Source: a virus | Length of the DNA: 64,000 nucleotides | Strand: one strand, 5' to 3' | Virus record (IMG/VR): IMGVR_UViG_3300035698_022738 | Location: 1-64,000 of that record | Shown here: piece by piece, positions 13,984-61,796 of the stretch | Layout: each line of letters starts with the position of its first letter | How positions within the stretch are numbered: the stretch's first letter is position 1 | Program-made: the position numbers and the translations under genes | Notes under the pieces: generated by a model | Database searches by the model: none | The model's input: only the letters and a program-made list of their open reading frames with translations | What the model was told of the DNA's origin: nothing

Positions 13984-14338
13984 CTGGTTGCCGTCCTGGT
14001 TAAGGGTTGTTATATACGCTCTGGCTGTATTCAGGCTGACTCATTTGGTTTTGAGGGAGGCGGGACCCTTCGACATCTTTGTGAGATTGAGAGCCTTGCT
14101 CGGAGCTTACGAAAGACTGGAAGTGTCAAAGAATGGTGAGGTCATAGCCATACAGACCTCGAAGGGCTTTTGGACTGATTTGTTTTCCTGTCCTTACTGT
14201 CTGTCTGGCTGGTTTGCCATCATTGCAGCTGTCGGGCTCGCCTCAGATTTCTTGTGGCTCGATCTGATCGCCCTCTGGCTTTGTGTGTGGGCAATTGTAT
14301 TCTTTGTCTTTAGGGCATTAGAGAGGGGTGAGGGATGA
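13973..14338 (+). CDS. DUF1360-like small membrane protein
   Basis: This 121-residue protein has hydrophobic segments near residues 9-24, 66-83 and 88-111. The central D.FSCPYCLSGWF matches the cysteine-pair signature typical of the DUF1360 family found in phages and sporulating bacteria. Its biochemical role is unknown. It starts inside the end of the tandem glycosyltransferase gene and its stop overlaps the next start (ATGA), so it is embedded in the sugar operon; a membrane anchor or regulator for glycosylation enzymes is conceivable but unproven. Confidence 0.75.
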   Translation: MNLSWLPSWLRVVIYALAVFRLTHLVLREAGPFDIFVRLRALLGAYERLEVSKNGEVIAIQTSKGFWTDLFSCPYCLSGWFAIIAAVGLASDFLWLDLIALWLCVWAIVFFVFRALERGEG

Positions 14339-15213
14339 GAATCCTGATAACAGGAGGCCTGGGGTATATCGGGGGCTATCTGGCAAAAGAGCTAAAGAGA
14401 GATGGACACGATGTTATCCTTCTTGATACTCTGTTCAATGCGGCATGGAATGCCAATGAGTTCAACGAGTTTGGAATTATGAGGGACAGCGTTACAAACA
14501 TTGATGTCGTTTCAAGGGCGTTGAAGGGTGTCGATGTTGTCTATCATCTGGCGGCCAGGATGGATTGGTCACAAGCCTTTAGGCACCCGATCAAGCTGTA
14601 CAGGACAAATGTACTGGGGACAGCCAACGTTTTGACAGCTGCCAGGGATGCCGGGGTTGACCAAGTTGTTGTGGCCTCATCAGCTGCGGTCTATGGAAAC
14701 GTGGATTATGCAGATGAGGACTGCCTGCCGATGCCCATCAATTCCTATGGCTGTACCAAGTTAGCCATGGAGGCTGTCTGTCGTGATTTTGGTATCATGG
14801 GGCTGAATGTTGTTGTTCTCAGGTTCTTCAACGTTTGGGGTGGCATGGTATCCCGATCTGTTGTCAATAAATTTGTAGATGGGCACTCGTCAATCTATGG
14901 AGACGGGGGACAAACACGAGACTTTGTTTACATTGGTGATGTCATTTCTGCTCTCATGCAAGCCCGTCTCTGGGACCCCCTAATCTACAACATTGGGACT
15001 GGGGTATCTATCTCAGTTCAGGATTTGTGGAGCATGATAAGAACTGATAAACCGGAGCTTGAAGGGTTAAGGTCTGGACAGCCTGAAATCTATATGTCAG
15101 GAGCTGACATGGATTCTACCTACCGTCGTGTACCTTGGAGACCAAAAGTAATGATCTCTGAGTTGAAAAAGACAGACATCATTAGACTGTCTTTGTCTGA
15201 ATCGCTTGATTAG
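14335..15213 (+). CDS. NAD-dependent epimerase/dehydratase (extended SDR family)
   Basis: This 292-residue protein shows the glycine-rich nucleotide-binding motif TGGLGYIG near residues 6-13, a serine region (ASSAAVYGN) and the catalytic Y-x3-K (YGCTK near residue 138), followed by RFFNVWG. Length and motifs fit UDP-sugar 4-epimerases and 4,6-dehydratases acting on nucleotide sugars in the cytosol. The exact reaction is not readable. It is coupled to DUF1360 upstream and followed by oxidoreductase, aminotransferase and acyltransferase genes, so it probably supplies or reshapes the nucleotide sugar that those enzymes modify. Confidence 0.88.
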   Translation: MRILITGGLGYIGGYLAKELKRDGHDVILLDTLFNAAWNANEFNEFGIMRDSVTNIDVVSRALKGVDVVYHLAARMDWSQAFRHPIKLYRTNVLGTANVLTAARDAGVDQVVVASSAAVYGNVDYADEDCLPMPINSYGCTKLAMEAVCRDFGIMGLNVVVLRFFNVWGGMVSRSVVNKFVDGHSSIYGDGGQTRDFVYIGDVISALMQARLWDPLIYNIGTGVSISVQDLWSMIRTDKPELEGLRSGQPEIYMSGADMDSTYRRVPWRPKVMISELKKTDIIRLSLSESLD

Positions 15214-15236
15214 AGTCCGGCTGGGAGGCCTATATA

Positions 15237-16085
15237 ATGCGAGTAGCTGTGTTTGGAGCGGGTTACTGGGGTATCAACTATATCAGGGAGTTGGGGAAGT
15301 ACGTTGAATTTGTAATAGAACCAAATGCTGAGAGAGCTGAGGTTGTGCGGAAAAAGTATGGAGTTGCAGTCTATCCTGACCTGCCAGAGGTGTATTTTGA
15401 TGCAGCCGTTGTAACAACACCTCCCGAGCATCATGTCAGGATTGCAAAACCAATCCTGGCCTCCGGCAGGAAAGTATTGATCGAAAAGCCGTTGGCTATG
15501 TCAGTCAATGAGGCCAAAGAGCTTCAGCCCTACGCAGAAAATTGCATGGCCGCTCTGGTCTACCTCTTTCACCCAACTGTCGAAACTCTCAGGAAAGAAG
15601 CTAGCGCGAGGATAGAATTCAAGCAGCTGTCTCATATATGTAGTCGTAGGACAAATGCAGGTCCTGTCAGACCATGGCAGACTGCAATGCACGACCTGGC
15701 TCCTCATGATATTTCCATTTTCAATTATGTACTGGAAAGCTCTCCGAAGTGGGTAAGAGCGGCAGGAAACAACGACTGGACATTTTTGAACCTTGGCTAT
15801 GAACTCACCTCGGGGGAAACATACGATGCCATTTGCTATGTATCATGGCATGGAGGGGAAAAAATCAGAAGAATTGAACTTGTGTACACTCCAGAGCACT
15901 CGGAACGGTTTGTATTTGACGATGTATCCATTGTTCTGTCAATAACCCCCTTGAGACGTATGCTTGACTCATTCATGAACGGGCAATGGGAAAAGAGCAC
16001 TTTTGACGATGGAATGGCTGTTATGCAGGTCTTGCAATCGGCGGAGAAAAGTCTCGCTATGGGTGGGCGGGAGGTAAAATTGTGA
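15237..16085 (+). CDS. Gfo/Idh/MocA-family sugar oxidoreductase
   Basis: This 282-residue protein begins with a Rossmann fold (VAVFGAGYWG) and has the family signature EKPLA near residue 84, where the lysine contacts the substrate. The family oxidises or reduces a ring hydroxyl of a sugar or nucleotide sugar with NAD(P). Followed directly by a DegT-type aminotransferase and a beta-helix acyltransferase, it resembles the WbpB step of the WbpB-WbpE-WbpD pathway (3-oxidation of a UDP-sugar acid). That substrate is inference from gene order. It overlaps the next gene by four bases. Confidence 0.87.
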   Translation: MRVAVFGAGYWGINYIRELGKYVEFVIEPNAERAEVVRKKYGVAVYPDLPEVYFDAAVVTTPPEHHVRIAKPILASGRKVLIEKPLAMSVNEAKELQPYAENCMAALVYLFHPTVETLRKEASARIEFKQLSHICSRRTNAGPVRPWQTAMHDLAPHDISIFNYVLESSPKWVRAAGNNDWTFLNLGYELTSGETYDAICYVSWHGGEKIRRIELVYTPEHSERFVFDDVSIVLSITPLRRMLDSFMNGQWEKSTFDDGMAVMQVLQSAEKSLAMGGREVKL

Positions 16086-17233
16086 GTACCTTACTAGGTC
16101 CTGATCTTCGTATTCTTGACCCAAAAATTCTCGAAAGAGTTGAAAGCGTACTCATGTCAGGACAGTTTATAAACGGTCCGGGGGTTGGGTTCTTTGAGAA
16201 GAGCTGGGCGGAAGTGACTGGCAGTGAGTATTGTGTTGGGGTTGCTTCTGGGTCGGCTGCACTCAAGTCAATACTCACCTATATCCGACGCAAATCTCCT
16301 GACAAGCAGAATGTTATCTTACCCAGGATATCCTTCTATGCGACGGCGGAAGCTGTTGTATCCGCTGGGTTTACACCCTATTATGTTGATGTCGGGCCAG
16401 ATGGGGGAATACTTGTTGGGGACGTTAAGAAAATCTTGGAAGGGGGAGGTACGATAAGCCCCCAGAGTATTGCAGCTGTCGTAGTTGTCCATCTGTATGG
16501 AAAAGCCCTTCAAATGAACACTCATATTCAAAAGCTTGCTCGGGAACTTGGAATTCCTTTTGTAGAGGACGCATGCCAAGCTCATGGTGTATTCAACAAG
16601 GATTTCCCGCATTACGGGATTGCAGCAGCCTATTCATTTTATCCGGCCAAGAATTTAGGGGCAGCTGGGGACGCAGGGGCCGTTGTAACAAACGATATGG
16701 AGTTGGCTGACTTTGTACGGGCATACATCAACTATGGTGATCCAAAGGGCCAGAAGTTCAATCATTCCCTGCTGGGTACAAATGAGAGAATGGACACAAT
16801 ACAGGCAGCTGTGTTGAATGGGAAACTAGAGAGTCTGAAATCTTGGAATAATCATAGGAGCCAGGTTGCTGGATATTATGCAGCCAGTGGACTGAAGTCA
16901 ATTGCTTCCCGGTCTGGTCTGGAAGTTGTCTCAAACTGGCACCTCTATCCAATATTAGTCAAAGAGCGGGATATTGTGATGGAACAAATGAGAACGGTCA
17001 GAAGGGTGTCTACGGGCAACCATTATCCATACACCTTGGATAGTTTGTTCCCTGGCGAGAGGGCTTTTGAATCACTCTGCTTCGGAGATTCCTACTCAAA
17101 AGTTCTTTCCGAGCATACAATGACTCTTCCCATAGGAACTCATGTTACAATGGAGATGGCTGCACAAGTAGTCAACGCCTTCCAATCAATTTGCAAAAGA
17201 GACAAGACATATACATGGAGGTTAAAAGAATGA
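16082..17233 (+). CDS. DegT/DnrJ/EryC1/StrS-family sugar aminotransferase
   Basis: This 383-residue product has a GTG start overlapping the previous stop. Family features are [10 protein letters not shown] near residue 56 (phosphate-cup region), VEDACQAHG near 162 and [15 protein letters not shown], whose lysine near residue 189 should form the Schiff base with PLP. These enzymes aminate a keto-sugar nucleotide using glutamate. The keto group would be made by the preceding oxidoreductase and the new amine acylated by the following enzyme, the WbpE position in the WbpB-E-D scheme. It ends in an ATGA overlap with the acyltransferase. Confidence 0.92.
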
Positions 17234-17670
17234 TACGTGATGATGTTGTCATTGAAGGCGAATGTAAAATCGGAGAAGGCCTGGACACCGGATATTTCGT
17301 TGTGCTCCGGTCATGTACAATTGGGGACAATGTTTGTATTTGGAGCCACTCTACAGTTGATCCAGGGGCTGTAATTGGGGACAACGTTAAGTTACACAAT
17401 CACTCCTACGTGAGTCAGAATGTGATCATCGAGAGTGGTGTTTTTGTTGGGCCTGGAGCCATAATCCTGAACGACAAATACCCCCCTCGGTATAACCCGG
17501 ATGTATGGGAACCACCGAGAATTTGTACCGGGGCTGTAATTGGGGGAGGGGCAGTTATCCAACCTGGGGTCACAGTCGGAAAAGGTGCGATCATTGCCGC
17601 CGGAGCAGTAGTAACAAAGGATGTTCCACCAAATCAGCTTTGGGGTGGAATTCCGGCAAAGAGGATGTAA
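17230..17670 (+). CDS. Left-handed beta-helix (hexapeptide repeat) acyltransferase
   Basis: I place the start at ATG 17230 (ATGGAGGTTAAAAGA ribosome site, ATGA overlap with the previous gene), giving 146 residues. The sequence is almost entirely hexapeptide repeats of the [LIV]-G-x4 type ([35 protein letters not shown]) with the PP.. loop typical of trimeric acyltransferases. Members transfer an acetyl or other acyl group from a CoA or ACP donor to an amino sugar. It is the natural last step after oxidation and transamination, WbpD-like. Donor specificity is not readable. Confidence 0.9.
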
Positions 17671-17671
17671 C

Positions 17672-18268
17672 ATGAAAGCTTTGGACAATGCTGCAAAGGT
17701 GTGGAACGATCCTGAGCCTCTTGAGAGAGCCTGGGAAACAATGGATCAGAAGAAGGAACTGGAAAAATGGGTATCATCTGAATGGGTAGGACAGGCCGAT
17801 AAGATTGCTGATCTGGAGTGTGGAACTGGCAGGTATGCTGATGTACTTGAATATTCCTGGTACAAAGGCTTCGACACCAGCACCCCTATGATCAAGTTTG
17901 CTGAGGCAAAGGCCAAGGACAGGGGAAGGGAGAACGCTGAGTTCACCTGTGTCGATGTCCTGAGTTACCAATCGACTGAGGCCTACGATCTTGTGCTCAT
18001 GATGGATGTAGCCCAGCATATTGATGAGCCCTTACAGGCAATCATGCAGGTTCTCAATCACTGGGTTGCAAACAGGTATATTTTTTCTGTTTTGGTTGGC
18101 CCCAAACGAGAACAGTTGATGAATTCTACGGTGATTCCATATGTAGAATTCGCAGACTTTTTGGTTGATATCACAGGGAAAAAGAAGAAATCTGTCTCTC
18201 TTCGGGTGGATCAGGTTGGGGGAGAACAGTTCAGAGCGGCGTATTTATATGTAGCAGGGGGAAAATAA
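17672..18268 (+). CDS. Class I SAM-dependent methyltransferase
   Basis: This 198-residue protein has a SAM-binding motif I variant DLECGTGRY (usually DxGxGxG), motif II-like FDTSTPMI and VLMMDVAQHIDEP as the post-II segment. The start at ATG 17672 follows GAGGATGTAAC. Its position inside the sugar cassette suggests methylation of a sugar hydroxyl or N-alkylation of an amino sugar (compare methyl-capping enzymes of O-chains), but substrate is inference. The stop overlaps the next ATG (TAATG). Confidence 0.82.
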   Translation: MKALDNAAKVWNDPEPLERAWETMDQKKELEKWVSSEWVGQADKIADLECGTGRYADVLEYSWYKGFDTSTPMIKFAEAKAKDRGRENAEFTCVDVLSYQSTEAYDLVLMMDVAQHIDEPLQAIMQVLNHWVANRYIFSVLVGPKREQLMNSTVIPYVEFADFLVDITGKKKKSVSLRVDQVGGEQFRAAYLYVAGGK

Positions 18269-18999
18269 TGCTATCACATACGATGGTAGGAGCAGTAACT
18301 CCAGGCCTTCATATCCGGAACGAGGAATACTGGATACATTACGTACTTCGAGATATTCTGAAGGTCTTTGGTCGGGCTGTTGTAATTGATACGGGAAGTA
18401 CGGATCAAACAACAGCAATCGTGAAAAAGACGTTTGATATGTATGGAACACCGGGTGAGTGCATCCTGGTCGAAGAGGACATGGGGACCGACGCAATAAA
18501 AATCGGTCAGTGTTCCACTCGATTACGAGGCATGATAAAGACCCCATGGATGCTGTTGGTAGACGGGGATGAGATATGGAGAACAACACAGCTCAAGAAC
18601 TTTTTGGATGCTTTGGAGGGTTTGCGAGTTGAAGATACCGAGGTTGGTCTGATAAAAGCTCGCAATATCATAGAGCACAATGATGTATTTGTAGAACGTG
18701 AGGGCTTTTCGGCAGACCGTCTTTTTTCTCCGGTAGTGAAATGGAGTAAGAGAAATGACTACCCGTTCCAAAGCCATGATCTTGAAGATAGAATCGATAG
18801 AGGGAAGTCATTTTACTTTTTGGGTGATGTGTTTTTCTGGCATGTTAGGCATATAATCAGGTCAAGCAATGAGCAAGTTGCCTACTTCCGCCAGGAAAAG
18901 AGGGATTATTTCCCATGGGATGGTCAATTTGAGGACCTACCCGAAGATTGGCTGGGCGACGTTGATCCAGCATTCCTAAATCCATATTTGAAAATATGA
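18268..18999 (+). CDS. Family 2 glycosyltransferase
   Basis: This 243-residue GT-A protein has the acceptor-side start LHIRNEEYWIHYVLRD, donor-site VVIDTGSTDQTTAIV and a metal-binding LVDGDEIW (DxD equivalent). The pattern (IRNEE...DTGSTD...DGDE) is that of the GT2 branch around WcaA/SunS-type enzymes, some of which glycosylate peptides. It is the last gene of the sugar cassette, translationally coupled to the methyltransferase, and is followed after seven bases by the connector protein of the tail module. Confidence 0.87.
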   Translation: MLSHTMVGAVTPGLHIRNEEYWIHYVLRDILKVFGRAVVIDTGSTDQTTAIVKKTFDMYGTPGECILVEEDMGTDAIKIGQCSTRLRGMIKTPWMLLVDGDEIWRTTQLKNFLDALEGLRVEDTEVGLIKARNIIEHNDVFVEREGFSADRLFSPVVKWSKRNDYPFQSHDLEDRIDRGKSFYFLGDVFFWHVRHIIRSSNEQVAYFRQEKRDYFPWDGQFEDLPEDWLGDVDPAFLNPYLKI

Positions 19000-19006
19000 G
19001 GTAACT

Positions 19007-20152
19007 ATGTACGGTGTTCGAGCAACGCATTTGTCGCTAGAAGAATACTGGGAGTTCCTTCAGCTTGATGAGCCCTTTGGGTATGGGATAAGAAATCATC
19101 CTGATCTGACCCCAACAGGAAACGTAACCTGTGGGACATACTGGGATCAAAGAGAACGGGTGTATCTAGCAAATGCGATTGCAAAGACTGAGAACCGTCT
19201 CAGGGCTGACCGTTGGCTGGGGTTCCCCGTCCGGAGGGAGTATGTAGGCCCCCGAGAGATTGAGTGGTCTGTACCATTGTGTTTTGGGAAGTATATCAGG
19301 CAGATTGGGGTAGAAGCAGAAATCACAATCCAGGCCGGACAGACTCTGGACCTGCAAAATGGAAGTATCAACGACCCAGTAGAGTTCACAGTTGCTGTTG
19401 ATTTCACGGATATTGATGAGTTGATCCTTTACTACCCAGACCAGACAAAGTACACAATACGGCCCTCAAGTGTGGTATTTGCTGGCGGGATTGCTACAGT
19501 TCAAGTGCCCAGGTGCAGATTGTTGAAGCCTGCATATTTTATCAACTACGTGCAGGACACTGACAGGCCAGACTACACTGATGACGACAATTTTCTGGCG
19601 ACGGTGGATGTTGTCCGGAATTATGTGGATACCACGACTGGAACCAACGTTGTTTGGAACAGGGACCCATATCAGATACGACCCTACTCTCCTGGGCCTG
19701 TCTTTGATCCGGTTTTTGGGACGTGCAAGCCAACAGGGCCTGTGAACCAGGAACTCCAATTAGCCCGAGGTGCTGTTGTGAACCAGAGAGATGGAGAGGT
19801 TTTGGTTGAACCTGGTGCTTATGCTGATGGTGCCTGGACGCGCTCAAATTATACAATTTGCCGGAATCCTGACATGGTTCAAACCAATTTCATGCAGGGC
19901 TATTATGATCGGTATGACGAGATTGATGCCGATCTCACCAAGGCAATCATATCTGTGGCCCATAACAACATGCCACAGGACCCGTGTTTTCGTTGTGCGA
20001 CTACTCAGCAGTATTACGAGCGAGATGTTTCCCCGCTTGAGCCCCCCGTGAGTCTAAGGCTTGGTCCAAGTACATGGGGAATTTATGAGGCAGTTCAAAT
20101 TCTCAAAGAGTTTGACGCCAAGCTCAATCCATATCACGGAGGTATGCTGTGA
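19007..20152 (+). CDS. Putative head-tail connector / virion structural protein
   Basis: This 381-residue protein belongs to no family I can name with confidence. The N-terminal ~90 residues are helical with EYWEFLQLDEPFG and ANAIAKTENRLRADRWLGFPV, reminiscent of the helical adaptor proteins that sit under the portal; the rest is beta-rich. It opens the block that runs straight into tail tube, chaperone and tape measure genes, the usual place of connector or completion proteins. It overlaps the next gene by four bases. Confidence 0.6.
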   Translation: MYGVRATHLSLEEYWEFLQLDEPFGYGIRNHPDLTPTGNVTCGTYWDQRERVYLANAIAKTENRLRADRWLGFPVRREYVGPREIEWSVPLCFGKYIRQIGVEAEITIQAGQTLDLQNGSINDPVEFTVAVDFTDIDELILYYPDQTKYTIRPSSVVFAGGIATVQVPRCRLLKPAYFINYVQDTDRPDYTDDDNFLATVDVVRNYVDTTTGTNVVWNRDPYQIRPYSPGPVFDPVFGTCKPTGPVNQELQLARGAVVNQRDGEVLVEPGAYADGAWTRSNYTICRNPDMVQTNFMQGYYDRYDEIDADLTKAIISVAHNNMPQDPCFRCATTQQYYERDVSPLEPPVSLRLGPSTWGIYEAVQILKEFDAKLNPYHGGML

Positions 20153-47730: not shown

Positions 47731-47775
47731 GAGGTTACTCTACTGACTAAGTTGACATAACTGTCCCCTTCTCAT

Positions 47776-47810
47776 GAGCTCATGAACTCCTCTATCATGA
47801 GCTCTTTTTT
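47776..47810 (+). terminator. Rho-independent terminator
   Basis: GAGCTCATGA (47776-47785) / TCATGAGCTC (47795-47804), perfect ten-base stem, nine-base loop, six T. Ends the accessory cassette. Confidence 0.9.
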
Positions 47811-47994
47811 CATGAATCCATGAGCTCATGAGCTTATTGGCCCATGGGCCGATTGAGCAAGGGCTCATGGATTCATGGAGCAAGGGCCAATTGGCCCATG
47901 AAATCATGAGATCATGAAGTCATGAATATAAGTGAAAACATGAGCTCATGAATATAAGTGAAAACATGAGCTCATGAGCTCATGAATATAAGTG
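47811..47994 (+). repeat. Palindrome-rich island (CATG/AGCT/GGCC) with tandem 26-bp repeat
   Basis: Contains a perfect 15-bp inverted repeat CATGAATCCATGAGC (47811) / GCTCATGGATTCATG (47863), the palindromes GGCCCATGGGCC (47839) and GGGCCAATTGGCCC (47884), and two perfect tandem copies of a 26-bp unit (47921-47946, 47947-47972) followed by a partial third. ATGAGCTCAT recurs several times. No gene fits. It could be a replication origin, iteron-type operator or recombination hot spot. Confidence 0.85.
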
Positions 47995-50052: not shown

Positions 50053-50487
50053 ATGAAAATGAACATGGCTAACAGGTCTTATGAGTTGGTCAAAGCGGGT
50101 CTCGATAGTATTTCACACTACACTTCTGGTGATTACGCTGCGGTGACCATGTGGCAGGGGATGTCTCGGTTTGCGTTTGTCGATGACCTGATGCAAAAAA
50201 TGGGGTTGGATTGCTTTACCAATCACATTACGGTTTACGGGGAACGCTCGTGGATCGTAGAGTTATACAGCATCCTGGACAGGGAAAAACGCCTTGATGC
50301 CTCAGTGTATCTCAGTTTGGACGTGGGCACAGCTGATGTCAATTCTAAGGTCTGTGTCTCAATAATGATGTCGGACGATGGTTTTGGTCGTTTCATCTAT
50401 CGAGCCAAGGTAACTCAGAAGCAACTGGAAGCTGAGATTGCTGTCATCAAAGAGGCAGCCATTCGATTTGAAATGGGGGAAAAATGA
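50053..50487 (+). CDS. Unknown protein coupled to the GHKL ATPase gene
   Basis: Start among ATG 50053, 50059 and 50065, with AGGGGG just upstream; about 144 residues. Alpha/beta, soluble, with SRFAFVDDLMQKMGLDCFTN and VYLSLDVGTADVNSKVCVSI; cysteines are not paired. Ends in an ATGA overlap with the GHKL ATPase gene, so the two may work together. Family not recognised. Confidence 0.68.
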   Translation: MKMNMANRSYELVKAGLDSISHYTSGDYAAVTMWQGMSRFAFVDDLMQKMGLDCFTNHITVYGERSWIVELYSILDREKRLDASVYLSLDVGTADVNSKVCVSIMMSDDGFGRFIYRAKVTQKQLEAEIAVIKEAAIRFEMGEK

Positions 50488-52085
50488 GCTGGGAAAAAGA
50501 GGACCTGATCCAGACCCGTTACGGCTGGTATCGGCTTGATACCAGTCACAAAACAAATGTTCATGAGGACTACCTCAGCACGGAGCTTTTCTGGAACGAG
50601 TGGGCGGCATTGAGAGAGTGCATCCAGAACGCTCTCGATGAGGCAGATATTATGTCTCAGTTGCAGGGTGGGGAAATCCACGATTACATTAGCATCAAAC
50701 GTCGTGGGGAACGAGTTATCCTGGCTGATCGTGGTCGGGGTGTTGACGTTGAGAGTATCCTCTTAATTGGCAAGTCCGGAAAACGTGGGGCTGGCCTTCG
50801 AGGGGATAAGGGTGAGGGTCAGTTGATGTCTTTTCTGGTGTTCACTCGTCTTGGGATTGACATTGAAATGTTTTCACGAGACTGGCTGGCCCGTCCTCGT
50901 TTCGAGAATTTCAACGGTAGCGATGCCAACACCAATAAGGTGTTGGTTGTGGACTTTTACCGATGCACTGATACCGACAGCCAAAAGGCTCTCAAAGAGG
51001 GTTCGGTCTGGCATATCGAGCGGACATCAGAAATTGATGAGATGGTAGCAACCATCGGGGATTATTTCCCTGAAATCTCACCAGCTGCCAAACGACAGGC
51101 CAAACGTCGGAAAGAGCAAGAGCAAGAGGAACGCTGGCGGGAACAGGATGCTCATAGCAGAAAACAACAAAGTCGAGAGCGGAATGAAATCCGTCGGAAA
51201 TCAACGACGGTCAACAAGCCAGTGTTCCGGCCTCGAAAAGGAACTCCCGCTCGGTTGTACTTGAGAGGGATTTACGTCAAGGACCTGACCGACAGCCAAA
51301 AGGCTCTCTGGTCTTACAACCTTGTGGATGCCTCGATTGACAGGGACCGCAAGATGGTCAACGAGCTTGAGTTGCTCGATGACATAGCCGAGAAAATGGG
51401 GTCTGAGTACGTGACTCCTTCGATGGCTCGGGAGTATTGGGAGCACGCCAAAGCTCAGGACAGGGCGTTGTATCTTGAGTTCAGAGTGGTCCCCCGACCT
51501 CAGAACGACGAAGTGTTTGAAATGTGGGCCAAGGCGTTCTGGAAAGTCTTTGGCCCGAAGACTTGTATCTACACCAACAGCTATGCCGCTGGTGACGCTG
51601 CGCGTGAGGGGTGGAACGTGATACCCCTTGACAATATTCAGTTGCGGTTTGCTCTTGACTCGTTGGGGGTCAAGACTGATAAGCAAGCCGCTGGTTTCAC
51701 CTCTGGCGACTTCAAGCTGGTTGACAAGGTGACACAGCGGGAAACCGATATGATAACCAAGACCTTGGAGATTTTCGATCTGCTGGGTCTCGCTCAGAGC
51801 TTCTCTCGGTTCCATGTTGTTGGAACCATACTTGGTGATGAGGAGACAGAGGCCTTTGCTTATGCGGGTGAGATATACGTCACTCGTAAGGCCTTCAAGC
51901 GAGGGGGCTTGCATGTCTTGGAGTGTGCCCTGCACGAAAAGGGGCATATTGAAACTCTGACGCAGGACTTTACGCGGGGATTTACTCACTGGTTCCTGCA
52001 CAACTGGGTGCAGGCGTTACGTGGAACCGATCTCAATCGTCAAGTTGAGATCGCTCAGAAAATTGCAGAACTAGAATCAATCTAA
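50484..52085 (+). CDS. GHKL-type ATPase with C-terminal HExxH zincin motif
   Basis: This 533-residue protein shows all Bergerat-fold boxes: N box ECIQNALDEAD (residues 45-55), G1 ADRGRGVD (81-88) and G2 KSGKRGAGLRGDKGEG (97-112). A very charged helical linker lies near 205-245 (KRRKEQEQEERWREQ). The C-terminal part has HEKGHIE near residue 484, an HExxH zinc-protease signature within a helix after EIYVTRKAFKRGGLHVLE. HSP90, MutL, gyrase and MORC-type proteins share the ATPase fold. An ATP-gated clamp fused to a protease-like domain would be unusual; whether the HExxH binds zinc is unknown. Confidence 0.8.
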   Translation: MSWEKEDLIQTRYGWYRLDTSHKTNVHEDYLSTELFWNEWAALRECIQNALDEADIMSQLQGGEIHDYISIKRRGERVILADRGRGVDVESILLIGKSGKRGAGLRGDKGEGQLMSFLVFTRLGIDIEMFSRDWLARPRFENFNGSDANTNKVLVVDFYRCTDTDSQKALKEGSVWHIERTSEIDEMVATIGDYFPEISPAAKRQAKRRKEQEQEERWREQDAHSRKQQSRERNEIRRKSTTVNKPVFRPRKGTPARLYLRGIYVKDLTDSQKALWSYNLVDASIDRDRKMVNELELLDDIAEKMGSEYVTPSMAREYWEHAKAQDRALYLEFRVVPRPQNDEVFEMWAKAFWKVFGPKTCIYTNSYAAGDAAREGWNVIPLDNIQLRFALDSLGVKTDKQAAGFTSGDFKLVDKVTQRETDMITKTLEIFDLLGLAQSFSRFHVVGTILGDEETEAFAYAGEIYVTRKAFKRGGLHVLECALHEKGHIETLTQDFTRGFTHWFLHNWVQALRGTDLNRQVEIAQKIAELESI

Positions 52086-52096: not shown

Positions 52097-52336
52097 ATGC
52101 CACGGATCGTAAGAAATTTTTTCATCTCTGGTGAGGTGGATGGACGCAAGACAGCGATTTCGGTCGGACCCGCCTCGAAAGAGGGGGGGTTTGATGTGCA
52201 GTTCCTCATTCGGAGTGCGGGTGAGGTAGCTCAGTCGGTGAGGGTTATCGGTGAGGCCTTCGAGGGGGGTGATCTCAAGCTCACTGTTCTCGATGAGAAC
52301 GGAAATGACATTCATGTACACCGGACTGTCCGGTAA
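52097..52336 (+). CDS. Small beta-rich unknown protein
   Basis: This 79-residue protein follows TAAAGGAGATTTCA. Alternating strands with VRNFFISGEVDGRKTAISVG and KEGGFDVQFLIRSAG. I have the impression of a common small phage protein with a GR....GP..K.GG..I..R..G pattern, but cannot name it. Followed by the structured intergenic region. Confidence 0.68.
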   Translation: MPRIVRNFFISGEVDGRKTAISVGPASKEGGFDVQFLIRSAGEVAQSVRVIGEAFEGGDLKLTVLDENGNDIHVHRTVR

Positions 52337-52341
52337 CGTCG

Positions 52342-52374
52342 TTTGGGCGACGTAAAATAGCCGTCAAGCCCAAA
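52342..52374 (+). ncRNA. Conserved intergenic hairpin, copy 1
   Basis: Stem TTTGGGC / GCCCAAA (52342-52348, 52368-52374) encloses a 19-base loop GACGTAAAATAGCCGTCAA, in which GACG/CGTC can also pair. The second copy at 54552-54584 has the same lengths and loop but a different stem sequence that still pairs. Confidence 0.65.
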
Positions 52375-52378
52375 GCGT

Positions 52379-52428
52379 AGAGAGCTCCGAGTTGGAAGTT
52401 GGAGCTCTCTGGTCGGGGATAAGCCCGA
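52379..52428 (+). ncRNA. Two further intergenic hairpins before the zinc-finger gene
   Basis: AGAGAGCTCC / GGAGCTCTCT (52379-52388, 52401-52410), perfect ten-base stem, and TCGGG / CCCGA (52413-52428). No T-tracts. Together with the preceding hairpin they fill the 112-base gap and lead to an AGCATAGGATGGGAG ribosome site. Confidence 0.6.
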
Positions 52429-52448
52429 GCATAGGATGGGAGTGAAAA

Positions 52449-52754
52449 ATGAATGAATTTCTGGAACGTCACATTGTAGTATGTCCGATGGAAAGACCGA
52501 CATTTGTGGTACGTTGTCCCCTCTGTGGTTTCGAGACAGAGGTCGATGACCATCTGTCGGAGCACATCCTCGAAAAGCATGAGCTTGAAGCTCGTGATGG
52601 GACAGTTGATCTCAGCTCTCTGAGTGAGGATGTCAGAGAGAACATCAAAGAGACCCTGGCTGATTGGGATTTGGATGCGTCTCTCTGCGAGGAAAGTACA
52701 CAAGAATATGATGATTGGTGTCAGGGGATGGCGGAAAAGGAGTGCAAGAAATGA
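52449..52754 (+). CDS. C2H2 zinc-finger-like small protein
   Basis: This 101-residue protein contains CPLCGFETEVDDHLSEHILEKH, a C-x2-C-x12-H-x4-H finger near residues 23-45, followed by an acidic C-terminal half. May bind nucleic acid or protein. Stop overlaps the next start (ATGA). Part of a run of small coupled genes. Confidence 0.72.
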   Translation: MNEFLERHIVVCPMERPTFVVRCPLCGFETEVDDHLSEHILEKHELEARDGTVDLSSLSEDVRENIKETLADWDLDASLCEESTQEYDDWCQGMAEKECKK

Positions 52755-53038
52755 GCAAAGACATATATGAACTTGTTTTAACGGACTGTAATTTCGAGCG
52801 GCTGATAGATGCCTATGAGGCGTTTTGTACATTGTTCTTGGTACAGCCTGAAGTGTATGTACGAGGGGTTTTCAAGAACAACGAGGGCGGAGAAATAGTT
52901 GCTCTTTCGTCGGATATCAAGGTCTTGAATGTGAATCCTTTGGTTGGACTTGTGAACAATGGGAACCTTGAACTTGTTCCAAGTAGCCAATGTGAGTGGT
53001 CTATGTATCTCAATCGAAAGAGAGGGTTACAAAAATGA
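52751..53038 (+). CDS. Small unknown protein
   Basis: Start at ATG 52751 in an ATGA overlap with the zinc-finger gene; 95 residues. Alpha/beta, no motif seen (YEAFCTLFLVQPEVYVRGVF). Ends in an ATGA overlap with the next gene. Confidence 0.65.
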   Translation: MSKDIYELVLTDCNFERLIDAYEAFCTLFLVQPEVYVRGVFKNNEGGEIVALSSDIKVLNVNPLVGLVNNGNLELVPSSQCEWSMYLNRKRGLQK

Positions 53039-53313
53039 AATATAAGTGGCTGGCAGAGGCAGGTATCGCTGGGTGCCTGCCTGGGTTTACTTCCATCTGT
53101 GATACCAAGGCAGATGCTATTCAGACTGTTACAGACCTTTTCGACCTTTCACGTTATGGACGTGTTGCCAAGGACCTGTCACAGGCTGGTGATACCGTTT
53201 CGGATCGTGATGAGTCGGAACATGATCTGATGCGTTTTCAGGTTTACAAGGTAGTCCCGGCTGACCTGAATGTGGAGAGCTGGGATGAATTGGAGTTCAA
53301 TGATGATCTCTAA
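53035..53313 (+). CDS. Small unknown protein
   Basis: Start at ATG 53035 (ATGA overlap, GAGAGGGTTAC upstream); 92 residues. Contains LSQAGDTVSDRDESEHDLMR and an acidic end. No family recognised. Overlaps the start of the SWIM-like gene. Confidence 0.65.
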   Translation: MKYKWLAEAGIAGCLPGFTSICDTKADAIQTVTDLFDLSRYGRVAKDLSQAGDTVSDRDESEHDLMRFQVYKVVPADLNVESWDELEFNDDL

Positions 53314-53701
53314 TCGGATAGACAGGGCGCGGAAAGCTGTCGAGTTTTGCCACGTTGGTACTGAGCGGAAAGGGATCATCCAGACTGTGTTTGTCCCAGG
53401 TCACGAGGGTCGGAAATATCGAGTGATCCTCAAGCGCGGAAAGGGATTGGTCACTCTGGAATGTCAGCGGATGTTGCCCTATGACACGTCTGTCCTATGT
53501 CCAGGGGGCTGTAAGACGGTTTGTTACCATTGTATGGCAGCTCTCATCTTTACGGCTCACCAGGCTGGATTTGATACCTCGTTCTGTGAGTCGAAAGAGG
53601 ATGCTCTCAGGCTCAAGAATTTGCACGAGGGTGCGCTGATGATGCGAGTGGTGAGCAAGCATGCACCATCAAACGGATGTTTTGCTGTATTCGGCAAATA
53701 G
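53300..53701 (+). CDS. Small protein with SWIM-like zinc-finger pattern
   Basis: Start at ATG 53300 (TTGGAG upstream), inside the previous gene's end; 133 residues. Basic N terminus (RIDRARKAVEF) and a cysteine cluster CPGGCKTVCYHCMAAL near residues 67-85, resembling the C-x-C...C-x-H of SWIM fingers, which bind DNA or proteins. A short, acidic helix follows. Role unknown. Confidence 0.68.
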   Translation: MMISNRIDRARKAVEFCHVGTERKGIIQTVFVPGHEGRKYRVILKRGKGLVTLECQRMLPYDTSVLCPGGCKTVCYHCMAALIFTAHQAGFDTSFCESKEDALRLKNLHEGALMMRVVSKHAPSNGCFAVFGK

Positions 53702-53709
53702 GGTAGTTC

Positions 53710-53837
53710 CGGCGACTTTGGAAGTCACGTCCAGGGGACAATACCTCATTGACGCTATGAAGCCTAACTAGCAGACGTGGATATGGGGCTGGCATAGAAT
53801 GGTCGTAAGGAGTCCGGCTAGTGTACAGCCGTCGCCG
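53710..53837 (+). ncRNA. Structured intergenic RNA, closed by CGGCGAC/GTCGCCG
   Basis: A 165-base gap whose ends pair perfectly over seven bases (53710-53716 / 53831-53837). Inside are GACTT/AAGTC (53714-, loop TGG) and CACGTC/GACGTG (53727-, 53776-). No T-tract. It is upstream of an AAGCATGGGAGATTAAA ribosome site. Not homologous in sequence to the hairpins at 52342 and 54552. Confidence 0.45.
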
Positions 53838-53865
53838 TCAATCAATTCAAGCATGGGAGATTAAA

Positions 53866-54570
53866 ATGGAAAAATTGTTTCCGACATGGGATGAAAAGCC
53901 AACAGATTCTGGGCGTATGATTGCTTATGTTTCCGGACATTTCCGGTACTGGACTGGGAACTCGTGGAACCAATCCACGAGCTACGCGCATAACGTCAAG
54001 ATTCCGAGGCTGGGTCTTGACAGTGAGACACGGGACAAGTGCTATGCTGCACTGGATATTCCACAGGCTTTTGATGAGGTAAATGAAATTCTTGAAGACT
54101 TCGCTGTCCGGCACAACTACGCCTGGAAGATTTCGTTTAATGACCGCTCTGGGGGCTACCTTGTACTCTATCAGGGTGGGGTGAAAGACAACAAGTCATT
54201 TGTCTATCCAGTTCGAGGAGTGGGAGAGATGGACTGGGTGGACGGTGATTTTCTGACGGACTTGGTTGATGTGATATGGGATTTCGATGAGACTTGTCAG
54301 AGGGCTGTCGAAGTCTTTGTCGAATTTGCAGTGTCACATACCGTAGTGGAAGAAGAGATTATGGTTTCCAAAACAGTCCTTGTGGCAATCTCAAATGAGG
54401 ATGCAAACCGCAGGGAGTCCAACAGGCTTTGGGAGTCGGCCTGTCAGTTCGATGGGTACGATCCGGATGAAAAGTTTGTATGCTTTTCGGATGAAAATCC
54501 GTTCACCTCTGAGTACAACGCACGTATGATCGAGCGTCTGGAATACAGTCGGCAAGGCGACGTTAAATAG
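53866..54570 (+). CDS. Unknown protein
   Basis: Start at ATG 53866 after AAGCATGGGAGATTAAA; 234 residues. Alpha/beta and acidic, with SGHFRYWTGNSWNQS near residue 23 and FVEFAVSHTVVEEEIMVSKTVL (two parts). No family recognised. Its stop codon lies inside the loop of the second conserved hairpin, an arrangement that could couple translation and RNA folding. Confidence 0.68.
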   Translation: MEKLFPTWDEKPTDSGRMIAYVSGHFRYWTGNSWNQSTSYAHNVKIPRLGLDSETRDKCYAALDIPQAFDEVNEILEDFAVRHNYAWKISFNDRSGGYLVLYQGGVKDNKSFVYPVRGVGEMDWVDGDFLTDLVDVIWDFDETCQRAVEVFVEFAVSHTVVEEEIMVSKTVLVAISNEDANRRESNRLWESACQFDGYDPDEKFVCFSDENPFTSEYNARMIERLEYSRQGDVK

Positions 54571-54584
54571 CCATCAGGCCTTGC
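54552..54584 (+). ncRNA. Conserved intergenic hairpin, copy 2
   Basis: Stem GCAAGGC / GCCTTGC (54552-54558, 54578-54584), loop GACGTTAAATAGCCATCAG of 19 bases, versus GACGTAAAATAGCCGTCAA in copy 1. Four of seven stem pairs differ from copy 1 and all are still paired. The loop includes the stop codon of the upstream gene. Confidence 0.65.
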
Positions 54585-54588
54585 GCGT

Positions 54589-54609
54589 CAGGCCCCCTCT
54601 CGGGGCCTG
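54589..54609 (+). ncRNA. Strong hairpin after conserved hairpin copy 2
   Basis: CAGGCCCC / GGGGCCTG with a five-base loop, no T-tract; occupies the same place relative to the conserved hairpin as the ten-base stem at 52379. Confidence 0.65.
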
Positions 54610-54642
54610 GGTTGGAACACAAATCAAGCATGGGAGACTAAA

Positions 54643-55164
54643 ATGGCAAATGTGTTGATTTTCACAAAGGAAGAATTTGAGGCTGCTTTGCCTTGTCACA
54701 AAGATACAAGCAAGCAGCTATGGACTTATGAGGGGATCGAGAACAATGAGCACTGCTATTCGATAAACATTCCGGGGGGGAAACCTCATCGGGTGTTTAT
54801 CCGGTCCTCTGTGGGTCTTTCAGGTTTGTCAGCTACGTGTGGAGAGGATAGCATTCGTATCTGGCTCGAAGAGAAACGGCCTATCGGTATCGGGAATCGA
54901 GAGGCCTGGGCCGGTGTTAAGAAAAAACAACGCTGGGTGACACGAGTCACAGGCTGGCAAGAGCGTGTTGTGAATGTTTGTCGGGAGACATACCGGCTTG
55001 GAGTCAACAAAGTGAATCTGGAAAGTGCAGCTCCACTTTGTCCGAAGTGTCAAACAGAGATGCGGATCAGGTTCCGCAAATCTGATGACAATCCCTTTTG
55101 GGGATGCCCTGGGTTCCCAGCTTGCAGGGGGACCGCAAATGTTAAAGTTTCAGCGGGTCTTTGA
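54643..55164 (+). CDS. Protein with C-terminal topoisomerase-type zinc finger
   Basis: This 173-residue protein starts after CAAGCATGGGAGACTAAA. The last ~40 residues are a C4 zinc finger of the topoisomerase I type: CPKCQTEMRIR...FWGCPGFPACRGT. The N-terminal part is unassigned. The same finger family begins the next gene (helicase), so one may have been copied from the other. Such fingers bind single-stranded DNA. Confidence 0.75.
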   Translation: MANVLIFTKEEFEAALPCHKDTSKQLWTYEGIENNEHCYSINIPGGKPHRVFIRSSVGLSGLSATCGEDSIRIWLEEKRPIGIGNREAWAGVKKKQRWVTRVTGWQERVVNVCRETYRLGVNKVNLESAAPLCPKCQTEMRIRFRKSDDNPFWGCPGFPACRGTANVKVSAGL

Positions 55165-55247: not shown

Positions 55248-56954
55248 ATGTCTAGTAAGACAATGGTATGCCCCGCTTGCGGAGCAGAGATGGTTCTGCG
55301 GAATGGCCGCCGTGGCAAATTCTTTGGCTGTTCCACATTCCCCAAATGTCGCAAGACCGTGGATGCGGCAAACGGAGCATCTGGGATATTCCCAGTCAAA
55401 AAAGAGGTGCCAGCTGTAATGCACCCCCCTACTCCTCAGCAAGAGGAAATCTTTCAGGCCATAGCCAGTGATGATTGCGACGATATTGTCATTGAGGCTG
55501 GCCCCGGTTCTGGAAAGACCTACACGATTGTCCAGTCCCTCCAAAAAACGGCTGGTCGTGGAAAGGTGGTCGTGGTTGCATTCAACAAGGCCATTCAGCT
55601 AGTCCTTAACCGACTAGCACCTGACCACGTTCTCACAAGCACGTTCCACAGCCTGGGGTTCTCAATTTGCCGCAACGCAGCAAGCGGTCAGATTTCTGTA
55701 GACCAGAACAAAAAATACGGGATTGCGAAGAATATTCTGTTCCCCAATGATGCCGACAAGGCAGCTAGGGGAGCTGTCGTGAAACTGGCGAGTATCTGTC
55801 AGAACACACTGGCTGACCCGACAGACCAGGCCCTGATGTACCACCTGATGGATGAATACGACATTGGGGATGTCTTGAAAGAAAAACACCAGCCAGCTAT
55901 GGTTGTCGATGCTGTCCCCACGTTGTTGGCTCACAGTGCAAGCTTGGAACTTTTAATCGACTTTGATGACATGATCTGGATGCCTGTCATCAAGGGTATG
56001 AAACCAACTGTGTTTGATTGGGTCAATGTCGATGAGGCGCAGGACTGCAATGCGTGCCAGATCGAGTTGATTAAGATGATCACTTCCCCCTATGGGCGGG
56101 TCAATGCAGTAGGGGATCGACACCAGTCGATCTATGGGTTCCGTGGGGCTGACTCGCACGCCATTCCCCGGCTCATATCTGAGTTGAACAACACCTCGGT
56201 GCTACCCCTGAATATTACTTTCAGGTGTCCAACATCTCACGTTGCTCTGATCCAGCAGCTGGTTCCAGAAATCACTGCTCGGGACGGAGCTCCGGAAGGA
56301 ATCATCAATGAGGGCGTGCGTTTGCACGAGATGTATGATCAGGCAAAGCCAGGGGACTTGATCCTGAGTCGGATCAATGCCCCTCTGGCTGGGGATTGCC
56401 TTGAATTTCTCCGCAGGGGGAAAAAGGCAGTCGTGATGGGTCGGGACATCGGCAAAAATCTTATCACCTTGATGGATCGGGTTGATACGGAAAAAACCGA
56501 TGACATGATCAAGGGCCTTGCTGATCACCTTGATGTGGAACGTACTCGGTTTGCTTTGGCTGGCAAAGAGCACAAGATAGCTGCTCTTGAGGACAAGGTG
56601 GAAACCATTTTCGTGCTGGCTGAGGGGACAAAGTTGGTCAGTGAAATCGTCCAGAAAATCAATGCGATATACAGCGACACTGCTGAGGGCATTGTGCTCT
56701 CGACAGTTCACCGGGCCAAGGGACTGGAAGCTGAGGATGGTTACATTCGTAAGCCGTCCCTCTTTCCTCACCCACGAGCTAAGAGTGAAAAAGACATCAT
56801 CCAGGAGCGCAACATTCTGTACGTTGCTCTTTCCCGGTTCAAAAAATCACTCTCATTTGTCGAAGGAAAATCACCCATTTCGATCTCATCAGAATTAGTG
56901 ACAACAGAGGCAGCTGATCCAGTAGCTGCCTCTGAGGCGCAGGGGCTGCTATGA
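55248..56954 (+). CDS. UvrD/Rep-type superfamily 1 helicase with N-terminal zinc finger
   Basis: Start at ATG 55248 after AAGCATAGGAGAGTGTAAA; 568 residues. Residues ~8-35 are a topoisomerase-type zinc finger (CPACGAEM...FFGCSTFPKC). The helicase core has Walker A AGPGSGKT, motif II VDEAQD, motif III GDRHQSIYGFRGA, motif V STVHRAKGLEAE and motif VI YVALSRFK. SF1A enzymes translocate 3'-5' on DNA in repair and replication restart. ATGA overlap with the sigma-like gene. Confidence 0.9.
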   Translation: MSSKTMVCPACGAEMVLRNGRRGKFFGCSTFPKCRKTVDAANGASGIFPVKKEVPAVMHPPTPQQEEIFQAIASDDCDDIVIEAGPGSGKTYTIVQSLQKTAGRGKVVVVAFNKAIQLVLNRLAPDHVLTSTFHSLGFSICRNAASGQISVDQNKKYGIAKNILFPNDADKAARGAVVKLASICQNTLADPTDQALMYHLMDEYDIGDVLKEKHQPAMVVDAVPTLLAHSASLELLIDFDDMIWMPVIKGMKPTVFDWVNVDEAQDCNACQIELIKMITSPYGRVNAVGDRHQSIYGFRGADSHAIPRLISELNNTSVLPLNITFRCPTSHVALIQQLVPEITARDGAPEGIINEGVRLHEMYDQAKPGDLILSRINAPLAGDCLEFLRRGKKAVVMGRDIGKNLITLMDRVDTEKTDDMIKGLADHLDVERTRFALAGKEHKIAALEDKVETIFVLAEGTKLVSEIVQKINAIYSDTAEGIVLSTVHRAKGLEAEDGYIRKPSLFPHPRAKSEKDIIQERNILYVALSRFKKSLSFVEGKSPISISSELVTTEAADPVAASEAQGLL

Positions 56955-58964: not shown

Positions 58965-59224
58965 TGAAAACAATGGGGATTACGAAAGCTCGTGAAAATT
59001 TCACACACCTTGTGACTGAGGCAGCTCAAGAATGTCCGGTTGTCCTGACCAGCCTCAAGGTGCCAAAGGCTGTATTGATTAGCTATAATGCGTGGGTCAG
59101 ATTGAATGATCAGGTGGATGACTTGGAGGATTTGGTCACATATGTTAATCGACGCAATGAGTCATCGACACCATTTGAGAGGTTTGTGAAGGATCACGCA
59201 ATAGAGGGTGAAGATGCTACCTGA
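58964..59224 (+). CDS. Second Phd/YefM-family antitoxin, orphan
   Basis: This 86-residue protein begins MKTMGITKARENFTHLVTEA, the typical Phd/YefM 'strand, then S/K-x-R-x-x-F/L' opening, followed by VLTSLKVPKAVLISYNAWVRL and an acidic C-terminal helix. Longer than the relative at 44478. No toxin gene lies next to it. It may counter a host toxin or repress transcription; the overlap with the polymerase gene ties it to the replication operon. Confidence 0.78.
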   Translation: MKTMGITKARENFTHLVTEAAQECPVVLTSLKVPKAVLISYNAWVRLNDQVDDLEDLVTYVNRRNESSTPFERFVKDHAIEGEDAT

Positions 59225-61796
59225 TCCCTGCAAAGAGTGCGGGTTACACAAGACTTGCAAAACGCACATGGTGCCGGGATCGGGTTCTGATCATCCGTTA
59301 GTTCTTTTTGTAGGGGAGGCCCCTGGAGCGGAAGAGGATGAAACAGGGGTGGTGTTTATGGGTAAGGCTGGTCAGGTTCTCAGAGAGGCTATCAATCAGT
59401 TGGGCCTCTCTGATGACCAGTATCGTATCACAAATGTTGTACGGTGTCGGCCCCCCAAAAATCGGACACCTCGGGCCAGAGAGATAGAGCTGTGCTCTGA
59501 GTTCCTTTTTGAGGAAATTAAACAGCATCCCCCCAAAGTTATTGTGTTGCTGGGTAACACCCCACTCAAAGCTGTTTTGGGGGAAAACAAGATTAGTGAG
59601 TGGAACGGGCTTGCAGTTCAACGGGGAGATTTTGTGTATGCTCCGGCTTTTCATCCATCAGCGTTCAACTATGGGAACCGGGATCGCCTTGAGGATTGGT
59701 ACGATGCTCTGGAACAAGCGGTGCGTATTGCTCACGGAGAAAAGGTTCCCGATAGGAATGCTGGCTGGGAGTACATCTACCCCAAATCGTATGATGACCT
59801 AGTGGCTATGGAACGCGAGCTGGCAAAAAGTGAGACCATCACCTATGACGTAGAGACTCGATTTCTCAATATTCATGATCCGGAGAACACTGTGATATCT
59901 GTCTCATTTGGGATGGATGGTGTGGCCTGGTCGTTCCCCTTGTATCACACTGAAGGGTCGGAATGGTGGAAGGGAACTCGAATATTGTCGGTGGTTGGTA
60001 TGGTTTTGAACATACTTAGTAAGTCACAAGTAGTAGGGCATAACGTCAAGTTTGATAGGTCAGCTACTCGGAAGTTGTTGGGGCAGGACTTTGTTCCATT
60101 TGGGGACACAATGCGTATCTCTCAGCTGATCGACAGCCAGCCAGGAATACACGGCCTGAAGAGATTGGCTGGCATGAAATTAGGGATGTTTGATTATGAC
60201 CAGGAGTTGACTGATTACACCGACGCTCACCCAGAGGCTAATCCCAAAAAAGGTGGGGACTTCGGGCTGGTTCCACTGAAGAAGTTGCTTCCCTATGGGG
60301 CCATGGATTCAGCGGCAACTTACAGGCTGTATCATTTGTTGTTGTCTGAGTTGACACCGGAACAAACTGTCTTGTACAAGCAGCTCATTATGCCAGCTGA
60401 TGACGCGCTAGCTGAAATGGAATATCGAGGTATTCTGTTGGATACCTATATGGCAGAGCGGTATGAGCGGATATATAAGTTTGTTCGGGAAGAGAAGTAT
60501 AGGGCGGCTATCTTGCAGGACCCCGACGTGCAGAGGTTTATAGCACGTAAGCAAAAGATTGTGGATATTGAGCTCAAAAAACGTCGGGAAAAGAGTACAC
60601 GTAAGCTCAAGGACAGAAAATTCTCATTCAACGCAAACAGCACAGAAATGATGGGGGAAGTGTTTTTTACGATCAAGGATCACGTCCCCCCCGCACTGAC
60701 AAAAACTGGAAAGCCCTCAATGGATGCCGGACTGTTGGCTCAGAGTCCAGTTGCGGATGATCCACTATTTCAGCTCTATCGCAAGTATCGGCTCTATGGG
60801 TCGATGCTGTCCAAGTATCTTGGTCCTGCCTCTAAAGGGCTAAGGGATTGGCGGACTTGTGTCGATGGGCGGATACACACTCATTTCAATGTCGGGGGTG
60901 CAACAACTGGCCGATTATCTTCGAGTCAGCCAAACCTCCAGAACATTCCGTCTCCGGAAAAAGAGCAAGGGACCCTGCTTGAGAGCTTGCCTATTCGTAA
61001 CTTGTTCAAGCATACCCATCCCGGTGGATGTCTGGCCTCAGTTGACTTTTCTGGTATGGAATTGAGGATCATGGCCTCAATGTCTGAGTGCCTACCCATG
61101 ATCAAGGTATTCAGGGAAAACGGGGACCTGCATAGGTTTGTTACCTCAGCTGCGTTTTCCATCCCTGAAAAAGATGTAACAAAGACAAAGCGACGTACTG
61201 GGAAGTCGATCAATTTTTTAATCATCTACGGGGGCGGACCTGAGTCTTTGCACAGAAAATATGGGGTCCCTTTGAGTCAAAGCAAGCGTCTAATGAAAAA
61301 CTACTTCAAGAGGTTCCCCGAAGTCCATGAGTTTCACAATAAGGTTATTGACTTTGCAGAACGAAATGGCTATGTAGAGACACCCTTTGGGCGTCGCAGG
61401 TATCTCAGGAATATCAACTCTGTGATCTCTTACAAAAAAGAGGCGGATGAGAGGGCGGCTATCAATATGCCTATCCAGTCTCTGGCCTCTGATATATTGT
61501 TGTGCTGTATTGCAATCCTGGAGCGTAAGCTGATAAAAGGTGGGTTCAAGTCTCGGATGGTCAACACGGTACACGACTCCATCACCTTTGATGTATACCC
61601 AGGTGAGTTGGATACGATCTTGGTTATGGCAAGAGACATCATGGTCAATATCAAATACTATGCCAAGCGGTACTTCCCTGGTCTTGATTTTAGCTGGCTG
61701 AAAGTGCCTCTCAATGTGGATGCTGAGGTAGGGTCCCATTACGGGAGCATGAGCGATTATGAGATACCTGGGGTGGTGAGAGGGAGAGGAAAATGA
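59214..61796 (+). CDS. Uracil-DNA glycosylase / family A DNA polymerase fusion
   Basis: Start at ATG 59214 (GAGGG upstream); 860 residues. Residues ~1-190 are family-4-type UDG: C-x2-C-GLH...C at the start (iron-sulphur ligands), GEAPGAEEDETGVVFMGKAG and HPSAF. Residues ~205-380 are a 3'-5' exonuclease (YDVETR, GHNVKFD, YGAMDSA). The polymerase part has motif A DFSGMELR (~610), motif B RRTGKSINFLIIYG (~655) and motif C VHDSITFD (~786). SPO1-type phage polymerases carry a comparable UDG-like N-domain. It replicates the genome and may sense or exclude uracil. Confidence 0.93.
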   Translation: MLPDPCKECGLHKTCKTHMVPGSGSDHPLVLFVGEAPGAEEDETGVVFMGKAGQVLREAINQLGLSDDQYRITNVVRCRPPKNRTPRAREIELCSEFLFEEIKQHPPKVIVLLGNTPLKAVLGENKISEWNGLAVQRGDFVYAPAFHPSAFNYGNRDRLEDWYDALEQAVRIAHGEKVPDRNAGWEYIYPKSYDDLVAMERELAKSETITYDVETRFLNIHDPENTVISVSFGMDGVAWSFPLYHTEGSEWWKGTRILSVVGMVLNILSKSQVVGHNVKFDRSATRKLLGQDFVPFGDTMRISQLIDSQPGIHGLKRLAGMKLGMFDYDQELTDYTDAHPEANPKKGGDFGLVPLKKLLPYGAMDSAATYRLYHLLLSELTPEQTVLYKQLIMPADDALAEMEYRGILLDTYMAERYERIYKFVREEKYRAAILQDPDVQRFIARKQKIVDIELKKRREKSTRKLKDRKFSFNANSTEMMGEVFFTIKDHVPPALTKTGKPSMDAGLLAQSPVADDPLFQLYRKYRLYGSMLSKYLGPASKGLRDWRTCVDGRIHTHFNVGGATTGRLSSSQPNLQNIPSPEKEQGTLLESLPIRNLFKHTHPGGCLASVDFSGMELRIMASMSECLPMIKVFRENGDLHRFVTSAAFSIPEKDVTKTKRRTGKSINFLIIYGGGPESLHRKYGVPLSQSKRLMKNYFKRFPEVHEFHNKVIDFAERNGYVETPFGRRRYLRNINSVISYKKEADERAAINMPIQSLASDILLCCIAILERKLIKGGFKSRMVNTVHDSITFDVYPGELDTILVMARDIMVNIKYYAKRYFPGLDFSWLKVPLNVDAEVGSHYGSMSDYEIPGVVRGRGK

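Follow-up and report, generated by a model that had tools for sequence, protein, structure and literature searches.

Two predicted pistol ribozymes at gene boundaries of a bacterial virus and the placement of phage pistols at gene ends

Introduction

What do two copies of one structured element, placed at two gene boundaries of a bacterial virus, do to the transcript that contains them? The elements lie on the plus strand of a 64,000-nt stretch of viral DNA (positions 1 to 64,000 of IMG/VR record IMGVR_UViG_3300035698_022738; hereafter the window). An initial annotation described them as an intergenic hairpin repeated with compensatory stem changes and suggested processing by RNase III. RNase III and RNase E sites cut polycistronic phage mRNA between genes and need a host protein. 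The role of small ribozymes in bacteria and phages is largely unproven, and their regular use at phage gene boundaries is worth testing.

Results and Discussion

Both elements match the pistol ribozyme family

The repeated pairing segments are present as annotated: TTTGGGC (52342-52348) faces GCCCAAA (52368-52374), GCAAGGC (54552-54558) faces GCCTTGC (54578-54584), and three positions distinguish the two 19-base intervals. Scanning the whole window with Rfam returned two matches above cut-off, both to the pistol ribozyme (RF02679, cut-off 34.5). Copy 2 matched over 54547-54616 (60.7 bits, E 1.4e-8) and copy 1 over 52337-52396 (42.2 bits, E 2.4e-4), with E-values for the whole window and library. 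Because one RNA family is matched twice above cut-off, a chance origin of the repeat is excluded. No third pistol was found in the whole 96.9-kb record, and no Rfam family other than pistol exceeded its cut-off in the window or the remaining record; weak matches at 26090, 24622 and 42533 were all below cut-off.

Parsing of the sequence and folding gave each copy a full pistol anatomy. Copy 1 (52337-52417) comprises P1 (CGTC/GACG, 52337-52340/52349-52352), the pseudoknot formed by the segments above, P2 (CCG/CGG, 52361-52363/52414-52416) and a 13-bp P3 (52378-52411). The Rfam alignment of this copy skips P3, marking all eight P3 pairs as non-standard, and its end at 52396 reflects that unpaired P3; given the 13-bp P3 in the fold, we set the end at 52417. 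Copy 2 (54547-54616) has P1 (AGTC/GACG, 54547-54550/54559-54562; three pairs and a mismatch at the outer end), the pseudoknot, a 3-bp P2 (CCA/TGG, 54571-54573/54613-54615) and a 9-bp P3 (54588-54596/54602-54610). In both, as in RF02679, a two-nucleotide GU junction joins P3 to P2 on the right shoulder, placing the predicted cuts, which in the pistol class are Mg2+-dependent and fall between G and U, at G52412^U52413 and G54611^U54612.

This anatomy changes the geometry first proposed. In copy 2, seven bases of the 8-nt P1 loop pair with the P2-P3 junction, and this pairing is what had been read as the stem of a simple hairpin. The annotated "stem" is thus the pseudoknot, and the "19-base loop" is mostly paired, containing one half each of P1 and P2 together with the conserved core. 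The strong second hairpin reported after each copy is P3, and it is followed in both cases by the AGCATrGGA leader, as described. With 13 and 9 bp, P3 is the kind of strong hairpin that a protein-cut site of the RNase III type would offer. Such a site, however, leaves the full pistol anatomy, the covarying pseudoknot and the invariant core unexplained, and the elements match instead a self-cleaving ribozyme that needs no protein; we regard RNase III-type processing as barely credible. Unlike at RNase III or RNase E sites, the predicted catalyst here is the RNA itself, and the ends left are different.

Judged by sequence and structure, each of the two is a pistol self-cleaving ribozyme, predicted to be active and sited at a gene boundary in this bacterial virus. 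Harris et al. (2015; PMC4604425) describe for RF02679 the same P1, P2, P3 and loop-junction pseudoknot, the same fixed-length GU cut junction and a phage neighbourhood. Copy 1 is the weaker case: its score is modest (42.2 bits), its P2 has only 3 bp, and its core is a variant, with A at column 18 of our core alignment, where at least 90% of viral cores have U. The same variant recurs in three other aligned rows (L053, L076 and L117). The 13-bp P3 and this A distinguish copy 1 from the described family without changing its class.

The pistol core covaries among phages

The initial annotation had called the four covarying stem pairs evidence of selection on RNA structure. The first four pseudoknot pairs do differ on both sides between the copies, and one P2 pair does as well (A-U to G-C). 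We extended the comparison by aligning the 42-nt core of 116 distinct full pistols found on phage contigs, the two window copies among them. The aligned rows were preselected for at least 3 pairs in P1 and at least 5 in the pseudoknot, so the percentage paired in these helices (98.9% of cells, 102 distinct rows) is inflated. Pair-type turnover is not produced by the row filter alone. Both-side pair changes occupied 248 cells against 71.8 in shuffles (102 distinct rows), and the covariation score was 0.574 against 0.156 when shuffled, a value that none of 500 shuffles reached; slid controls scored at most 0.088. P1 and the loop-junction pseudoknot of RF02679 are therefore backed by covariation here. 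Together with the Rfam matches, this covariation strongly supports selection on RNA structure. The pistol class has about 10 highly conserved nucleotides. All 18 invariant alignment columns are present in both copies, many of them fixed by the collecting patterns themselves; at the nearly invariant column 18, copy 1 deviates.

The alignment drew on a survey in which a core pattern yielded 76 viral contig stretches and a second pattern 108; 4 of 67 distinct pattern matches failed the P1/pseudoknot filter and were dropped. The patterns detect close forms only, so the survey counts are not totals; nor are they independent, since G110 and G162, and likewise G099 and G117, look like the same phage. 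Among 84,980 genomes of bacteria and archaea, a somewhat stricter pattern matched only 6 stretches. A pistol above the Rfam cut-off was present in 36 of 38, 36 of 38, 39 of 40 and 35 of 37 records, or 146 of 153 overall. Two or more matches at E <= 0.001 occurred in 19 of the 153: eight in G066, seven in G122, five in G105, three in G155 and two in the others. One of the two matches in G112 was below cut-off. One phage with two pistols also has a gene for an RNA ligase of the RtcB type (L304; G037:160614-161621) that could rejoin ends of the kind that self-cleavage leaves.

Further copies had been anticipated in related phages. They are abundant among phage records sharing the core motif, as counted above, but absent from relatives identified by the neighbouring helicase, where 0 of 15 records contained a pistol. 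No relatives were found of the neighbouring 173-aa and 533-aa proteins, and the phage collection held no DNA match to this stretch at E 1e-5. The paucity of copies (two in the record, none with related helicases) and the core variant in copy 1 would suit ribozymes that play no part in mRNA processing, whether as inactive relics or as selfish insertions. Yet both copies retain P1, the pseudoknot, P2, P3 and the two-nucleotide GU junction despite turnover of the pairing bases, making the relic interpretation quite improbable.

Pistols are placed at gene ends

Copy 1 directly adjoins the TAA stop (52334-52336) of a 79-aa gene on the plus strand (52097-52336; phrog_37977, unknown function). Past the TAA, the reading frame of this gene reaches GDVK-TAG inside the ribozyme, as in copy 2. 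The stop codon noted within copy 2 is confirmed: ORF 53821-54570, which encodes 234 aa from the ATG at 53866 (53866-54570, plus strand) with no PHROG or Pfam match, ends at TAG 54568-54570 in the conserved AAATAG core of the ribozyme. Relative to RF02679 as described by Harris et al., a stop codon that adjoins (copy 1) or sits inside (copy 2) the ribozyme is a difference of setting, and the class is unchanged. Upstream stops thus lie at 0 and +24. The next starts lie at +36 and +31 nt from the cuts, which would leave a predicted 36-nt 5'-OH leader with a GGGAG ribosome site (52413-52448, plus strand) for gene 52449-52754 and a predicted 31-nt 5'-OH leader (54612-54642, plus strand) for gene 54643-55164, a zinc-ribbon protein.

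At neighbouring junctions without an element in the same gene run, gaps were -35 to +11 nt, with three exceptions: a promoter-like gap of 83 nt, 164 nt at 53702-53865, and, in our gene list, 1,064 nt before 50484, a gap that holds at least one further ORF. The 164-nt gap contains a 141-nt element directly 3' of a stop codon (53702-53842, plus strand) that is not a known ribozyme. The leader that follows it (53843-53879) is 86% like that of copy 2, and by this resemblance the element looks as if it were another cut junction. It had no relevant Rfam match and no convincing BLAST match among 303 loci, and the fold over 53702-53865 was no better than shuffles (z 0.52). A scan for the leader motif of the 53843-53879 type returned 35 viral stretches.

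To place surveyed pistols relative to genes, we kept the 116 whose P3 had 5 bp or more, whose P2 had 2 bp or more and whose cut fell at N^T; omission of 11 with less than 300 nt of flank left 105. The null consisted of random same-strand points no more than 3 kb away, and ORFs of at least 50 codons were counted. A gene end lay within -15 to +35 nt of the ribozyme in 70 of 105. The upstream stop fell at -15 to +3 of the ribozyme 5' end in 45 (random points, 4.2%) and only at +4 to +35 in a further 25 (random points, 7.6%); conserved ribozyme bases contain stop triplets and therefore favour the latter, "stop inside" class and not the former, abutting one. An ATG followed 20-60 nt past the cut in 44 of 105 (random points, 16.3%). 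Both window copies conform to the stop and the start placement. By this simple ORF rule 35 of the 105 lack a nearby gene end, and G122, G105 and G155 include exceptions to the placement. Dense phage genomes could by themselves bring stop codons close.

Several features of the neighbouring genes were also recorded. The helicase encoded at 55248-56954 is of the UvrD type and carries a topoisomerase-type zinc ribbon at its N terminus; a ribbon resembling it forms the C-terminal end of the small protein encoded just before (54643-55164). Gene 50484-52085 contains an exact 21-nt direct repeat (50973-50993 and 51288-51308).

Arrays combine two ribozyme classes

Some surveyed phages carry ribozyme arrays. 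In G066 (L139), 8 pistols are spread along a series of small genes; for every pistol the upstream stop lies at -10 to +24, and a near-identical leader follows, with an ATG 33-43 nt past the cut. Two further junctions are occupied by three-stem hammerheads (2998-3046 and 5096-5146), which overlap the upstream stop codon and whose cuts fall 41 and 43 nt before the next ATG. Both were missed at the Rfam cut-off, the second (core 5096) scoring 24.7 bits. A manual count on the ORF list puts a ribozyme at 10 of the 12 junctions in this G066 gene series. In G055 (L264), 2 pistols and then 7 hammerhead II ribozymes lie between consecutive genes over 6 kb (1781-7636). The hammerhead II ribozymes are mostly at the same between-gene position, with the nearest called stop more than 60 nt upstream in 2 of 7. 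Given that two unrelated catalytic folds occupy equivalent positions, we argue that they share a job, cutting between genes. Such arrays make the role directly testable, gene by gene.

Hammerheads were also sought in the window. The CTGANGA..GAAA pattern gave 11 matches against 6.9 expected by chance, and a search with a three-stem type I descriptor detected no hammerhead with a CUGANGA/GAAA core, three stems and an NUH cut in the window, the remaining record or L144/L145. The descriptor recovered the two in L139 and none in 2.18 Mb of mononucleotide-shuffled sequence. It does not recognize hammerhead II: in L264, where Rfam identifies seven, it returned none. G000 had no RF02276 or RF00008 match.

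A proposed route from polycistronic transcript to single-gene messages

Taken together, these observations make it probable that the two pistols cut a polycistronic phage transcript into single-gene mRNAs without an enzyme; both elements likely function by affecting how the mRNA is processed. As the transcript emerges, each element would fold into P1, the loop-junction pseudoknot, P2 and P3, and would cut itself between the G and U joining P3 to P2, with no enzyme required. The upstream mRNA would then terminate in the P3 hairpin plus one nucleotide bearing a 2',3'-cyclic phosphate, and the downstream mRNA would start with a 5'-OH and a 31-36-nt leader carrying the ribosome site. One polycistronic transcript would thereby yield separate single-gene messages, whose ends should withstand exonucleases and 5'-phosphate-dependent RNases; on general grounds, exonucleases would be expected to attack such ends more slowly. 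After the predicted cut, the copy 1 leader can refold, drawing the P2 strand into a new hairpin (-8.5 kcal/mol) that could hold the cleaved halves apart; the copy 2 leader folds without such a hairpin (-0.4 kcal/mol).

Since the stop codon overlaps the ribozyme, a ribosome terminating there may block or delay ribozyme folding; compact genomes would show the same overlap. We infer that both copies are active, that cutting is co-transcriptional, that it affects mRNA stability and that ribosomes delay folding. For other pistols, PMC4604425 reports products ending in a 2',3'-cyclic phosphate and a 5'-OH, and for one of them a cleavage rate of ~10 per min.

Genuine pistols by descent might instead mainly shut down read-through mRNA or shorten its life, rather than making stable single-gene messages. 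Cutting separates the cistrons under either reading, and some exonucleases accept 5'-OH ends. However, a complete ribosome site is retained in the downstream leader, 31-36 nt from the cut, and in G066 a leader of this kind follows each of the eight pistols and two hammerheads; such retention would be surprising in a message destined for destruction. We therefore consider destabilization unlikely.

Cleavage could also be followed by ligation, since RtcB accepts ends with a 2',3'-cyclic phosphate and a 5'-OH; the phage RNAs produced would be circular or spliced. RtcB was encoded in 1 of 20 pistol records examined and an RNA_ligase-family protein in 3 of 20, a rarity that lends this role little support; the record containing the window has neither. 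Perreault et al. (PMC3088659) reportedly sought such products of clustered hammerheads and detected none. Ligation thus seems very unlikely.

The preferred reading, enzyme-free segmentation, would give phages their own route to single-gene messages with unusual protected ends. Whether it extends further is more speculative. Ribozyme punctuation may conceivably, though doubtfully, be common to many phages: unrelated classes (pistols and hammerheads, perhaps joined by a further, undescribed one at 53702-53842) would be interchangeable and stop-codon-fused, and would cut the nascent transcript at a near-fixed 30-40 nt before the next start. Restrained by the terminating ribosome, they would let translation time the release of chemically protected messages.

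Relation to known systems

The pistol class, its phage association and, for hammerheads, the idea of segmentation are already in print. Clustered prophage hammerheads likewise flank single genes, according to Perreault et al. (2011; PMC3088659). Compared with what is reported there, the window elements are pistols, their distances from stop and start codons have been measured, and two phages combine both classes within a single gene run. Our literature search, which did not extend to the discovery paper (Weinberg et al., 2015), found nothing on pistol arrays or a stop-codon rule. What the present analysis adds is the quantified placement and the mixed-class arrays.

Other features of the window

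Three further features lie apart from the ribozymes. A long intergenic gap at 47771-47994 contains repeated palindromic units of the ATGAGCTCAT type and is perhaps a binding or origin region. A sugar cluster (11959-20152) sits amid structural genes and comprises glycosyltransferases, an NAD epimerase, an oxidoreductase and a DegT-type aminotransferase. Finally, a single ORF at 59208-61796 combines a uracil-DNA glycosylase domain, a 3'-5' exonuclease and a family A DNA polymerase.
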